Origin: an uncultured Pseudomonadota bacterium
GTDB lineage: Bacteria; Pseudomonadota; Gammaproteobacteria; Burkholderiales; SG8-39
NCBI GenBank assembly: GCA_903864555.1
Contig: CAIPGJ010000509.1
Span: forward strand, 1-7,258
DNA: 7,258 bases
Direction of reading: 5' to 3'
Shown one piece after another: positions 3,687-7,258 of the stretch. Both the position numbers and the translations under genes were made by a program. The notes under the pieces were generated by a model. That model was given only the letters and a program-made list of their open reading frames with translations, was not told the origin of the DNA and searched no databases. Each line of letters begins with the position of its first letter. Positions within the stretch are counted from its first letter, which is position 1.

Positions 3687-5014
3687 CAGCCTGTCGTGCC
3701 CCGGCCCACTAAGGCTTCCAGTTCGGCCACTGACTTGGGCGTGGCAGAAGTGATGACCTCGCAGCCCGTGTCCGTGACCACGACGTCATCCTCGATGCGC
3801 ACACCGATGTTCCAGTACTGCTCCGGAACCTTGTCGTCGGGGCGGATGTAGCAGCCGGGTTCGACCGTCAGCACCATGCCTGGCTCCAGCAGTCGCCAGT
3901 CGCCGGCACACTTGTAGTCGCCCGCATCATGCACGTCCAGTCCCAGCCAGTGGCCGGTGCGGTGCATGTAGAAGCGCCGGTAGTCCTCGCTCTCGATGAC
4001 GCTGTCGGCCGTGCCCTGGCACAGCCCCAGGCGCACGAAGCCTTCGGCCAGGGTATGCACCGCGGCGTCGTGCGGCGCATTCCAGCTACCGCCTGGGCGG
4101 GTGGCGGCGATGGCTGCAGTCTGCGCATCCAGCACCAGTTCGTAGATCTCGCGCTGTGCCTTGCTGAAGCGGCCGCTAACCGGAAAGGTGCGCGTGATGT
4201 CCGAGGCATAGCCGTCCAGCTCGCAGCCGGCATCGATGAGCAGCAGGTCGCCGTCCTTGAGGCGCTGGTTGTTCTCGCGGTAGTGCAGCACGCAGGCATT
4301 GGCGCCGCCGGCCACGATGGGCCAGTAGGCCGGGAACTGCGCGCCGCGCCGGCGGAAGCGGTACAGCAGCTCGGCCTCGATTTCGTACTCCATGCTGCCC
4401 GGGCGCGTGGCGCGCATGGCCGCGATGTGGGCTTCTGCGGAAATGTCGGCGGCGCTGCGCATGGTGGCCATCTCGATGGCGTCCTTGCGCAGGCGCATCT
4501 CGTCCAGCAGGGTGCGCACGTCGTGGATGGCGGACGGTGCCGTCACGCCGGCGCGCGACTGTTCGCGCACGCGATTGAGCCATCCGAGGATGCGTGCATC
4601 CCAGGCGCTGTCGGCGCCCGGTGCATAGTAGACGGCTGGCTGGTTGGCCAGCAGCGTCGGGGCGATTTCATCCAGGCTGGCAATGGAATGGGCCTCGTCG
4701 AAGCCGTAGCGTTCGCGGGCGGCATCGGGCCCGTGGCGGAAACCCTCCCACAGCTCGCGCTCCGGGTGCTTGTCACGGCAGAACAGGACGGACCTGGGCG
4801 ATTCCCCGGCGATCAGGAACAGCACCGCTTCGGGCTCGCCGAAGCCGCTGAGGTGATAGAAGTAGCTGTCGAAGCGGTACAGGTAATCGCTGTCGCGGTT
4901 ACGCAGGCGTTCGGGGGCCGTGGGGATGATGGCGACGCCCTGCTGCATGCTGCGCAGCAATTGGGCGCGTCGCGGGGCAAAGATCGAGGCGGGGGAGGGC
5001 AGGGCGGCATTCAT
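3686..5014 (-). CDS. pepP: Xaa-Pro aminopeptidase (aminopeptidase P), M24B family
   Basis: This cytoplasmic metallopeptidase removes an N-terminal residue next to proline, using two metal ions, normally manganese. The 442 residues match E. coli PepP in length and motif spacing. An N-terminal AMP-N domain (about 1-170; FDSYFYHLSGFGEPEAV at 48-64) is followed by the creatinase/pita-bread catalytic domain. All five metal ligands are present: D261 (LIDAG), D272 (SDITRTF), H355 (TGHWLG), E385 (TVEPG) and E408 (VRIEDD). H244 and H362 probably correspond to the conserved active-site histidines. The start at 5014 gives a family-like N-terminus, but no clear Shine-Dalgarno precedes it. The stop overlaps the ubiH start by one base. 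In many gammaproteobacteria a ygfB/UPF0149 gene lies upstream; here murU does instead, 94 bases away. Confidence 0.95.
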   Translation of the reverse strand: MNAALPSPASIFAPRRAQLLRSMQQGVAIIPTAPERLRNRDSDYLYRFDSYFYHLSGFGEPEAVLFLIAGESPRSVLFCRDKHPERELWEGFRHGPDAARERYGFDEAHSIASLDEIAPTLLANQPAVYYAPGADSAWDARILGWLNRVREQSRAGVTAPSAIHDVRTLLDEMRLRKDAIEMATMRSAADISAEAHIAAMRATRPGSMEYEIEAELLYRFRRRGAQFPAYWPIVAGGANACVLHYRENNQRLKDGDLLLIDAGCELDGYASDITRTFPVSGRFSKAQREIYELVLDAQTAAIAATRPGGSWNAPHDAAVHTLAEGFVRLGLCQGTADSVIESEDYRRFYMHRTGHWLGLDVHDAGDYKCAGDWRLLEPGMVLTVEPGCYIRPDDKVPEQYWNIGVRIEDDVVVTDTGCEVITSATPKSVAELEALVGRGTTG

Positions 5015-5043
5015 CCGGAAGGGTTCTGCAGGGAGGGTGGTGC

Positions 5044-5072
5044 ATTGTCATGCCGCGCGGGCCGCTGGGCAA
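5044..5072 (-). promoter_or_regulatory. Possible weak promoter for pepP-ubiH
   Basis: In the 94-base gap between murU and pepP, TTGCCC (5072-5067) and GACAAT (5049-5044) lie 17 bases apart on the minus strand. Each matches four of six consensus bases. Initiation would fall about 25 bases before the pepP ATG. The rest of the gap is GC-rich and shows no clear terminator for murU, so read-through from murU is equally possible. Confidence 0.3.
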
Positions 5073-5108
5073 GTCGCCTGACCGGCGCATCAGCGTGATG
5101 ATCGGTGC

Positions 5109-5777
5109 TTACCCGGCTGAATTCAGTGCGGACAGGCGTTCCGGTGTGCCCACATCATGCCATTGGCCGGCATGCAATTCACCACTTACTTTATTTCGAT
5201 CCATGGCCGAGCGCAACAGTGGCGCCAGCGGTGCTTTCACGCCGGGCGCCAGGCCGGCAAACAGGGCTTTGCTGTAGAGTCCGATGCCGGCGAAGGTATG
5301 CCGCCCCGCCGTCGGGCCGCTGGCGGCGAGCCGGCCGGCGGTCAAGCAGAAATCGCCAGCGGGATGGTGCGGCGGGTTGGGCACCATGACCAAATGGGCG
5401 AGATCGGCTCCGAGGGTGCGTCGCGTCAGGCCGGAAAAATCGTAATCGCAATACAGATCGCCATTCACGGCGATGAAGGCCTGGTCGCCCAGCAGCGACA
5501 GCGCCTGGACGATGCCGCCTGCCGTCTCCAGCGCACTGCCCTCGGGCGAATAGGCGATGTGCACGCCCAGGCAGGCGCCATCCCCGAGTGACTGCTCGAT
5601 CAGGCCACCCAGGTGGGCGTGGTTGATGACCAGTTCGCGTATGCCGGCTGCGGCCAGTGCCGCGACGGTCCATTCGATCATGGGCCGGCCTTTCACTTCG
5701 AGCAGGGGTTTGGGCAGGTGGTCGGTCAGCGGGCGCATGCGCTCGCCGCGACCGGCTGCCAGGATCATCGCTTTCAT
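5109..5777 (-). CDS. murU: N-acetylmuramate alpha-1-phosphate uridylyltransferase MurU
   Basis: The protein is a sugar-1-phosphate nucleotidyltransferase with a Rossmann-like fold. It would convert MurNAc-1-phosphate and UTP into UDP-MurNAc, the second step of the fosfomycin-bypassing cell-wall salvage route described in Pseudomonas putida. The 222 residues fit MurU, which is short for this superfamily. The nucleotide-binding signature is at 4-25 (MILAAGRGERMRPLT followed by PKPLLEV, with K23 in PKP), and the metal-binding NGD is at 105-107. The specific assignment rests on the partner kinase gene amgK directly upstream; by sequence alone GlmU/RmlA-like or mannose-1-phosphate enzymes are relatives. 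The frame extends to an ATG at 5828, but that stretch lies inside the inserted element, so I start at the ATG at 5777, where the conserved N-terminus begins. There is no strong ribosome site before it. Confidence 0.9.
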   Translation of the reverse strand: MKAMILAAGRGERMRPLTDHLPKPLLEVKGRPMIEWTVAALAAAGIRELVINHAHLGGLIEQSLGDGACLGVHIAYSPEGSALETAGGIVQALSLLGDQAFIAVNGDLYCDYDFSGLTRRTLGADLAHLVMVPNPPHHPAGDFCLTAGRLAASGPTAGRHTFAGIGLYSKALFAGLAPGVKAPLAPLLRSAMDRNKVSGELHAGQWHDVGTPERLSALNSAG

Positions 5778-5784
5778 GGAAAGG

Positions 5785-5796
5785 CTAGTGTCCTGA
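5785..5796 (+). repeat. Left terminal inverted repeat of the inserted element
   Basis: CTAGTGTCCTGA is the exact reverse complement of the right end at 6078-6089. The leading CTAG is itself a palindrome and probably includes the duplicated target. It lies seven bases upstream of the murU start codon. Confidence 0.8.
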
Positions 5797-5848
5797 ATCG
5801 CTAATTCGATGAAGAAAAAGACCGACAATCGCCGCCATACGGATACGG

Positions 5849-5868
5849 CCTTGCAAATGCTCGCAAGG
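5849..5868. repeat. Hairpin inside the element (6-bp stem)
   Basis: CCTTGC (5849-5854) pairs with GCAAGG (5863-5868) around an 8-base loop. No T-run follows on either strand, so it does not look like a terminator. Confidence 0.5.
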
Positions 5869-5980
5869 GGGTCAATCTTGCTCCGCTTTGTGCCTTCTTT
5901 GGCACCGATTTCGGCCTTTTTCGCGATCCAGGATCAGGTCTCGGTACAGAATCATATTCAACGAACTAAGAAAGGACTGA

Positions 5981-6003
5981 ACAAGTGGGCTAAGCCCTCT
6001 TGT
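5981..6003. repeat. Long imperfect palindrome inside the element
   Basis: The 23 bases form 11-nt arms around a single A with one T-T mismatch: ACAAG-T-GGGCT pairs with AGCCC-T-CTTGT. As RNA or single-stranded DNA this gives a strong hairpin. No T-run follows directly on either strand. A role in transposition, recombination or RNA stability in the amgK-murU transcript is possible but unproven. Confidence 0.65.
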
Positions 6004-6077
6004 CTATCCGCCACTTCAGAGGAAACATTTGAACGACAGTCCTCGATTCGAGACTTGATCCGTGTTTCCCTAACCAA

Positions 6078-6089
6078 TCAGGACACTAG
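6078..6089 (-). repeat. Right terminal inverted repeat of the inserted element
   Basis: TCAGGACACTAG mirrors the left end exactly. On the minus strand its CTAG supplies the TAG stop codon of amgK (6088-6086). The insertion therefore ended exactly at that stop and left the kinase's last codon intact. Confidence 0.8.
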
Positions 6090-7138
6090 AAGGTAAAGCC
6101 GGAGCGGGTGTCCTGCGGCGACAGGGTGTCCAGCAGGGCGCCCAGCGGCCCGAGCAGGCGGTAGCGCTCGCAGGTCTTGCGCAGATAGTGCATCACCAGT
6201 GGCTGGTCCTTGAGGTAGGCCTGCTTGCCATCGCGGTGGCATAGCCGGGCAAAGATGCCCAGCACTTTCAGCTGGCGCTGGGCGCCCATCCATTCGAAGT
6301 CCCGGTAGAACGCGCCGAAATCGGCATCCACCGGCAGGCCTGCCGCGCGCGCCTTTTCCCAGTAGCGCACGCACCAGTCAATCACCTGGGCCTCGGGCCA
6401 GGCGATGTAGGCATCGCGCAGCAATGACACCAGGTCATAGGTGATGGGGCCGTAGACGGCATCCTGAAAGTCGAGGATGCCCGGACCCGGCTCGGTCACC
6501 ATGAGATTGCGGGAATGGTAGTCGCGATGCACATAGACTGCCGGCTGCGCCAGGTTGTTCTCCAGGATGGCATCGAAAGCCGCGCGCAGGCAGGCCTGCT
6601 GGGCCTGATCCAGGGTGACACCAAGCTGCCGGCCGATGTACCACTCGGGAAACAGCTGCAGTTCGCGCTCCAGCAAGGGGCGGTCGTAGGCGGGCAGCAC
6701 GCCGGGGCGACTGGCTTTCTGGATCGCCACCAGCGCGTCGATGGCATTGAGGTACAGGCGGTCGGCCTGCTCCGGTTGCTGCAGCGCGCTCAGATAGGTG
6801 GTGTTCCCCAGGTCCGACAGCAGCAGGAAACCGTTCTCCACGTCCGGCCGGATGATCTGCGGGACATTCACGCCGGCCTCGGCCAGCAGGGTGGCGACGC
6901 TCACGAAGGGGCGGCTGTCTTCCTTGTCGGGCGGGGCATCCATGACGATGAGCGTGGCGCGACCGTCCGGTTCGGGCCTGGCCAGCTGCACACGAAAGTA
7001 ACGCCGGAAACTGGCGTCGTTGGAGGCTGGCACCAGGGACCAGGCATCATGACCCAGGCTGGTGCGCAACCATGCCTGCAGTTGCACCAATCGCGGGTCC
7101 GGGGATGGTTCGATGGCTACAGTCACACTGCCTTGCAC
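6086..7138 (-). CDS. amgK: N-acetylmuramate / N-acetylglucosamine anomeric kinase AmgK
   Basis: This member of the aminoglycoside/choline phosphotransferase fold would phosphorylate MurNAc (and GlcNAc) at C1, feeding MurU in the Pseudomonas-type peptidoglycan recycling route. The 350 residues show an N-terminal lobe with SNDASFRRYFRV (39-50) and IVMDAPP (64-70), then LLLSDLGNTTYL (105-116). The catalytic loop is HRDYHSRN (204-211, base D206), and the metal-binding stretch is ILDFQDAVYGPITYDL (221-236, D223). The start is the GTG at 7138; a GTG at 7126 with AAGG just before it is a possible alternative, and neither has a strong ribosome site. The stop TAG lies within the end of the inserted element, but the C-terminus appears natural. 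The neighbouring murU makes the function specific; without it only a generic sugar or aminoglycoside kinase could be called. Confidence 0.9.
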   Translation of the reverse strand: MQGSVTVAIEPSPDPRLVQLQAWLRTSLGHDAWSLVPASNDASFRRYFRVQLARPEPDGRATLIVMDAPPDKEDSRPFVSVATLLAEAGVNVPQIIRPDVENGFLLLSDLGNTTYLSALQQPEQADRLYLNAIDALVAIQKASRPGVLPAYDRPLLERELQLFPEWYIGRQLGVTLDQAQQACLRAAFDAILENNLAQPAVYVHRDYHSRNLMVTEPGPGILDFQDAVYGPITYDLVSLLRDAYIAWPEAQVIDWCVRYWEKARAAGLPVDADFGAFYRDFEWMGAQRQLKVLGIFARLCHRDGKQAYLKDQPLVMHYLRKTCERYRLLGPLGALLDTLSPQDTRSGFTF

Positions 7139-7224
7139 GGGGATGGTTGCTGCGGGGCGCGTGCGCTTGCGAAAAAACAGGCTTCGCAGGCAGCAGGCGT
7201 TTGCCTAAGTCGGTGATTTGTGAG

Positions 7225-7249
7225 ATTTTAGCACCCGGCTTTTCCTCAA
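7225..7249 (-). promoter_or_regulatory. Candidate promoter of amgK (extended -10)
   Basis: On the minus strand TGCTAAAAT (7233-7225) is an extended -10 element. A TTGAGG (7249-7244) lies upstream with a spacer of only 13 bases, too short for a normal -35, so the extended -10 would have to carry the activity. It would leave a leader of about 80 bases before amgK. That leader contains a 6-bp stem (TGCGAA at 7168-7173 with TTCGCA at 7183-7188). Confidence 0.4.
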
Positions 7250-7258
7250 TTATCCCTA

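Follow-up and report, generated by a model that had tools for sequence, protein, structure and literature searches.

The insert that separates amgK from murU at positions 5785-6089 of the window (the whole stretch of DNA analysed, 7,258 nucleotides) is very probably a nested pair of MITEs, element B lying inside element A, with a hairpin at the centre of A that is common to MITEs of different transposase families. To our knowledge, the origin of bacterial MITEs whose interiors are unlike those of a parent IS, and the reasons why some of them succeed, are poorly understood; a core common to transposase families and carrying compensatory changes is a concrete, testable object, and a model of this module finds such elements without prior knowledge of their ends. 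What appears to be new, judging from Rfam and the open-access literature searched, is a hairpin module common to MITEs with IS630- and IS5-type ends, IS630-driven MITEs being already known from the RUP elements of pneumococcus with IS630-Spn1 (PMC2229807).

An insertion at the amgK-murU junction

The features of the region are as follows.

5109-5777, minus strand: murU (nucleotidyl transferase), its start separated from the left CTAG by 7 nt
5785-5788, no strand: left target copy CTAG, read from the sequence
5785-5969, plus strand: element A, left and central part, with the IS630-type end CTAGTGTCCTGAATCGCTAATTCG
5815-5921, plus strand: core of A bracketed by A5 and T5, aligned with 14 other copies
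5839-5905, plus strand: 67-nt module, an imperfect hairpin, 62.2 bits, E 2.9e-13 (210,734 bases searched)
5967-5969, no strand: left target duplication of B, TAA
5970-6070, plus strand: element B, non-autonomous, nested in A
6071-6073, no strand: right target duplication of B, TAA
6071-6089, plus strand: element A, right end TAACCAATCAGGACACTAG
6086-6089, no strand: right target copy CTAG, read from the sequence; its complement holds the amgK stop TAG
6086-7138, minus strand: amgK (APH-family sugar kinase), whose stop codon TAG was reused by the insertion

The other genes of the window encode a Fis-type regulator, dus, an FAD-binding protein and aminopeptidase P. An earlier note, made from the letters of this DNA, had described an insert with CTAG at both ends, perfect 12-bp terminal inverted repeats, a G+C content lower than that of its flanks, and an exact amgK-murU junction once it was removed, and all four descriptions were borne out. 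CTAG occupies 5785-5788 and 6086-6089, the perfect repeats are CTAGTGTCCTGA and TCAGGACACTAG, and G+C is 0.489 within 5785-6089 versus 0.657 in 1 kb on each side; the inverted repeat is in fact longer, with 24 of 30 bases in agreement once B is set aside. With 5785-6085 taken out, TAG is followed by 7 bases and the murU ATG. The amgK stop TAG is the complement of 6086-6088, and it was retained because the duplicated target supplies TAG, while the murU start codon is intact beside the insertion. IS630 elements prefer CTAG or TA as target, and the TA at 5786-5787 is what we take, by the IS630 convention, to be the duplication. The distance from amgK to murU is now 308 nt, versus 7 before the insertion, and this spacer contains a long hairpin; a lowering of murU expression is predicted as likely.

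The junction was compared among 80 related betaproteobacterial loci (best amgK identity 66%). In 77 of these murU was placed 3' of amgK on the same strand; the two genes were no more than 58 nt apart in 56 loci and 72-1092 nt apart in 21. The insert was absent from all 80 loci by blastn, apart from one chance-level match of 26 nt (E 0.12), and the ten longer gaps that were examined contained other sequence. In all likelihood the ancestral junction carried no insert.

The insert could instead be read as a resident regulatory RNA of the amgK-murU operon, and its stable predicted fold (z -4.45) and the covariation of its core would suit such a role. The earlier note had named conservation at this locus across distant species, together with covarying structure and absence elsewhere in genomes, as the sign of a resident element; covariation was indeed seen in the hairpin, which, however, is scattered over many genomes and is not resident here. 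This reading, already refuted as far as an ancestral feature of the junction is concerned, is barely credible given the blastn absence from the 80 loci (77 with murU downstream), the presence of the core elsewhere in many genomes, the target duplications, and the lack of any Rfam match, at or near a family's gathering score, at the module in window positions 5000-7258 and in 12 module-bearing loci.

In 27 elements bordered by CTAG at either end, the adjoining TAG served as stop of an open frame (120 codons or longer) at 13 of the 54 sides, as against 12 of 108 for shifted frames. This is no more than suggestive, and points to a probable habit of landing on TAG stops that would follow from the CTAG target.

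Element A and its IS630-type ends

The only reading frame in the insert (95 aa) had no Pfam match, and no transposase gene was present. By blastn, just 8 of 200 genomes of the order matched the insert, each of them partially and one (G156) over 25 bases only, and the whole insert had no match in plasmids or phages. Two separate parts were matched in different genomes: positions mostly within 1-140 of the insert in G092, G025, G074, G027 and G158, and positions 192-292 in G008. Complete A-type copies, roughly 160-220 bp long and ending in CTAGTGTCCTGAGT or a near variant, numbered 21 in five betaproteobacterial genomes (G092, n = 10; G025, n = 7; G074, n = 2; G158, n = 1; G027, n = 1). Once B and one TAA were removed, the A of the window aligned end to end with 12 copies and was gapless at the site of B; CTAG flanked both sides in 10 of 12 A-family copies. 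The sequence CTAGTGTCCTGA was counted 95 times in five of the six genomes searched and its reversed control pattern 0 times, indicating that A ends occur far above chance.

A candidate partner for these ends was found in a plasmid search, in which the first 38-39 bases of an A copy matched the end of a Janthinobacterium plasmid element and two places in Cupriavidus. The Janthinobacterium element has the ends CTAGTGTCCTGAGTTAGAAATTCG and CTAGTGTCATGAGTTAAAAATTCA, about 1.17 kb apart, and encodes a 362-aa protein with a DDE_3 domain (NCBIfam transpos_IS630, E 5.7e-77). Loci L143 and L145 show this match between the ends of A and an element that encodes an IS630 transposase. A sister end type was seen in G089, where an IS630-type transposase (L248) lies between CTAGTGTAGTGCTTCG ends that are also those of its mini-element L244, the first 16 bases being the same in both elements of this one genome. 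Relatives of the IS630 transposase were present in 9 of 14 core-bearing genomes, several as fragments; those in G158, G025 and G119 had related but other ends, so that, for the end type of A itself, plasmids supplied the only partner seen. The IS481 family, guessed from the CTAG target, was rejected, as the partner scored 59.9 bits (cut-off 224) versus 259.1 for IS630.

At the level of sequence, then, the ends of A match those of IS630, and with its CTAG/TA duplication and no transposase gene A has the traits of an IS630-family MITE. The non-autonomous, IS630-like character supposed in the earlier note agrees with the full-length IS630-family elements sharing this end and with the G089 sister type; searches along the lines it had suggested returned a full-length IS with the same 5' end, in the Janthinobacterium plasmid, and copies in relatives, namely the 21 described above. 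Its view of the insertion as recent and as a single element was not supported: the matched part of A is 72-73% like its best relatives, 6 of the 30 end positions are mismatched, a 6-bp internal duplication is present, and a second insertion, that of B, is nested inside A.

RUP elements are like A in being short and gene-less, with a TA target and ends matching an IS630-family element, and they differ in host; in the passages that describe them, no conserved hairpin module common to IS5-type MITEs is mentioned (PMC2229807). The same source describes the Correia or NEMIS elements of Neisseria as small, with TA at their ends and transcripts that fold into stable stem loops (PMC2229807), features that also recall A.

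Among viral contigs, the exact-end pattern at the length found in the window gave 0 matches; a 15-base end gave 16 viral matches, none of which was hit by tblastn with the IS630 protein. In viral contig L085 (10226-10274) two facing CTAGTGTCCTGAATC copies lie 19 bases apart, perhaps by chance. At five loci of G158 (L123, L127, L131, L135 and L139) a near-identical CTAGTGTCCTGAGTCAGAAGTTCG end was found around a different interior, TCACCCCCGCGAACGCGGGGGTCC...CGGGAATGACGA, which is apparently one end type with other cargo. Also in G158, around position 1501 of L116, a stretch of about 54 bp consists of little beyond two facing IS630-type ends.

Element B, nested in element A

Relatives of B without A were found three times in genome G008, where they were flanked by TAA, TAA and TGA; since B is flanked by TAA in the window and its G008 relatives by TAA, TAA and TGA, it was recognised as a second mobile element inside A. 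Some IS5 subgroups prefer a TNA target, and B shows the 3-bp TNA duplication of an IS5-type MITE. The sequence CTGAACAAG of B is common to the end of an IS5 element of pA81, and a G008 copy of B gave no plasmid match. The TAA duplication of B resembles that of the IS5 family, and its ends may do so as well.

The anatomy of both insertions is consistent with two steps. First, A would have inserted into a CTAG spanning the amgK TAG stop, most likely mobilised in trans by an IS630-family transposase; later, B would have entered A close to its right end, with a duplication of TAA such as an IS5-type transposase would make. The Tn3-derived TIMEs are comparable to A and B as non-autonomous elements that build mosaics, and are unlike A in their Tn3-family ends and 5-6 bp duplications; as presented in the passages concerned, they combine one end type with varied cargo, whereas here one core is combined with varied ends (PMC4133298).

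At one G008 locus (L081), B is followed by CCAGGACAC, which is close to the A end CAGGACAC, and the other two loci (L082 and L083) are without such a sequence. On the reverse strand of L081, 3' of B, TAACCAGGACACAC resembles the window's TAACCAATCAGGACAC; G008 has neither CTAGTGTCCTGA nor a module match.

A conserved hairpin at the centre of element A

In the core of A, aligned in 15 copies, compensatory changes were observed at 12 of 28 predicted pairs. Two models were built: R1, of the core (102 positions; at most 10 matches scored per genome), matched 68 of 399 genomes of one order, and R2, of the central 67 nt (25 sequences; threshold E up to 0.001 per genome), matched 37 of 398 Pseudomonadota genomes, some near the E limit. 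In the alignment of 25 sequences (A2) 96.6% of the cells were paired, and 52 cells were changed on both sides, versus 15.9 for shuffled sequences and no more than 14 for slid controls; the hairpin covaries. The unpaired stretches GCGTT, CTC and GCCTTG were also conserved. Folded as DNA, the window's copy of the core was only modestly better than its shuffles (z -1.42). Mispairs in 77 sequences comprised 11 G-T and 16 A-C, and since G-T was not favoured over A-C, the hairpin is maintained either in DNA or in the RNAs of both strands, and not in a one-strand RNA only. A six-base tandem, ATACGGATACGG, at window positions 5837-5848 lies within the hairpin of A and is missing from the other aligned copies.

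Searched over 100 sources, R2 gave 109 module matches, of which 20 were dropped (two with short flanks and 18 without a significant repeat); the remaining 89 had flanking inverted repeats above those of 100 shuffles. The module lay in an open frame of 200 codons at 23 of 46 loci, whereas randomly chosen positions gave an average of 41.1 in 46. This intergenic bias would suit a mobile bidirectional terminator, a rather unlikely reading in which RNA of either strand folds, insertions are harmless or insulating, and murU has here been uncoupled from amgK. An A-run before and a T-run after the hairpin, within 25 nt, bracketed 30 of the 89 modules, versus 1.3 expected with shuffled arms, so that one copy in three could act as a two-way terminator; in the window, A5 and T5 flank the stem at its base, and the pairing errors favour no strand, as expected if both strands must fold. 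However, the paired runs were missing in 59 of the 89, the A-run of the IS630 types sits in the IS end itself (L143 has ACAAAATCG there), and the conserved unpaired GCGTT, CTC and GCCTTG are unneeded for termination; a consensus scan of 5600-6300, of a kind not covering stems with internal loops, found no terminator.

The hairpin with conserved bulges, and the inverted pairs of modules in some elements, also recall REP, REPIN and RAYT systems, which are described as dispersed palindromic DNA repeats, sometimes in inverted pairs (PMC3733652). That a Y1 (RAYT/IS200-type) transposase moves the module as a unit of REP type, and that its presence in MITEs is a matter of chance, is nevertheless very improbable. 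Y1 genes were found in 19 of 20 core-bearing genomes versus 9 of 20 without a match, a comparison confounded by size because the no-match genomes include several small ones, and none of 20 Y1 loci had the module in its flanks (up to about 2 kb, some of them shorter where a contig ended). A 50-kb stretch of E. coli K-12 contained no module (best 10.8 bits, E 1). The module lies mostly inside elements with their own end repeats, and it differs from REP and RAYT, as far as the passages on them go, in these ends, in having no Y1 gene beside it and in its different transposase (PMC3733652).

The same module between unlike ends

The outer 22 nt of 87 matches were clustered, two L178 matches being dropped as the same place as L213, and at the chosen cut 30 end types resulted, 13 with at least two members and 17 single, some with doubtful outer limits. 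The module was thus found between ends that are unlike in sequence. A transposase family was tied to three end types only, two IS630 and one IS5. The IS5 case is that of the module elements of L299, found through a viral contig, which have the end TTTAAGGAACCTCTGAACAATTCC and share TTTAAGGAACCTCTGAACAA with the pA81 element of Achromobacter; the latter encodes an IS5-family transposase (NF033581, E 7.2e-106; DDE_Tnp_1, E 1.7e-32). The module was in none of six IS630-type transposase loci, nor in the pA81 locus. Two single-end plasmid searches gave one weak partial match and none, respectively. Ends of the AGRGCCTGTT type were matched 59 times in G331 and G045, and in the 30 of these loci that were inspected the only end pairs were 198-266 nt apart, which leaves no full-length IS among them.

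Modules of the same genome with unlike ends had an identity of 0.730 (27 pairs, of which 15 came from G027, eight of these with L211, whose ends are doubtful); modules of different genomes had 0.652 with like ends (184 pairs) and 0.555 with unlike ends (3449 pairs), kinship between genomes being uncorrected. Clean single cases came from G049, where both modules of L169 have their own kind of ends, and from G036 (L151 versus L245). The higher identity of like-end modules across genomes, and the similar spacing of module and end (the nearer outer end was 44-52 nt from the module in 62 of 89), would fit a single ancient MITE lineage in which the ends have drifted or been substituted stepwise, the hairpin being an unselected remnant. 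We consider this improbable, as such a remnant would lose its compensatory changes and conserved unpaired bases, and modules within a genome are more alike across end types (0.730, with the 27 pairs and their G027 share as given above).

We favour the view that the hairpin benefits the elements that carry it, termination being a frequent side effect. The hairpin may be kept because it helps the elements to spread or to be tolerated, with candidate roles in bringing the ends together as a DNA hairpin, in binding a host protein or as a two-way terminator. A wider form of this reading, which we hold tentatively and at somewhat under even confidence, is that a portable 67-nt DNA hairpin of Proteobacteria would be reused as MITE core by unrelated transposases (IS630, IS5 and probably others), the ends being exchanged and the core kept while adapting to the host genome; it would act as a general passenger kit, through end synapsis, host-factor binding or two-way termination, with which any active IS end could give rise to a successful MITE. 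In the open-access literature that was searched, no description of this common module was recognised.

At L164, L173, L175 and L182, module elements lie near sequences like a DNA uptake signal that we take to be neisserial; since these uptake-like sequences stand beside them, the module may reach the Neisseriaceae, and these neisserial-looking elements were recovered by the module. Module pairs in opposite orientation were seen at L178, L184, L169, L240, L214, L216 and L217, and in five of these (L178, L240, L214, L216 and L217) a single pair of ends encloses both modules, whose starts are separated by about 108 nt.
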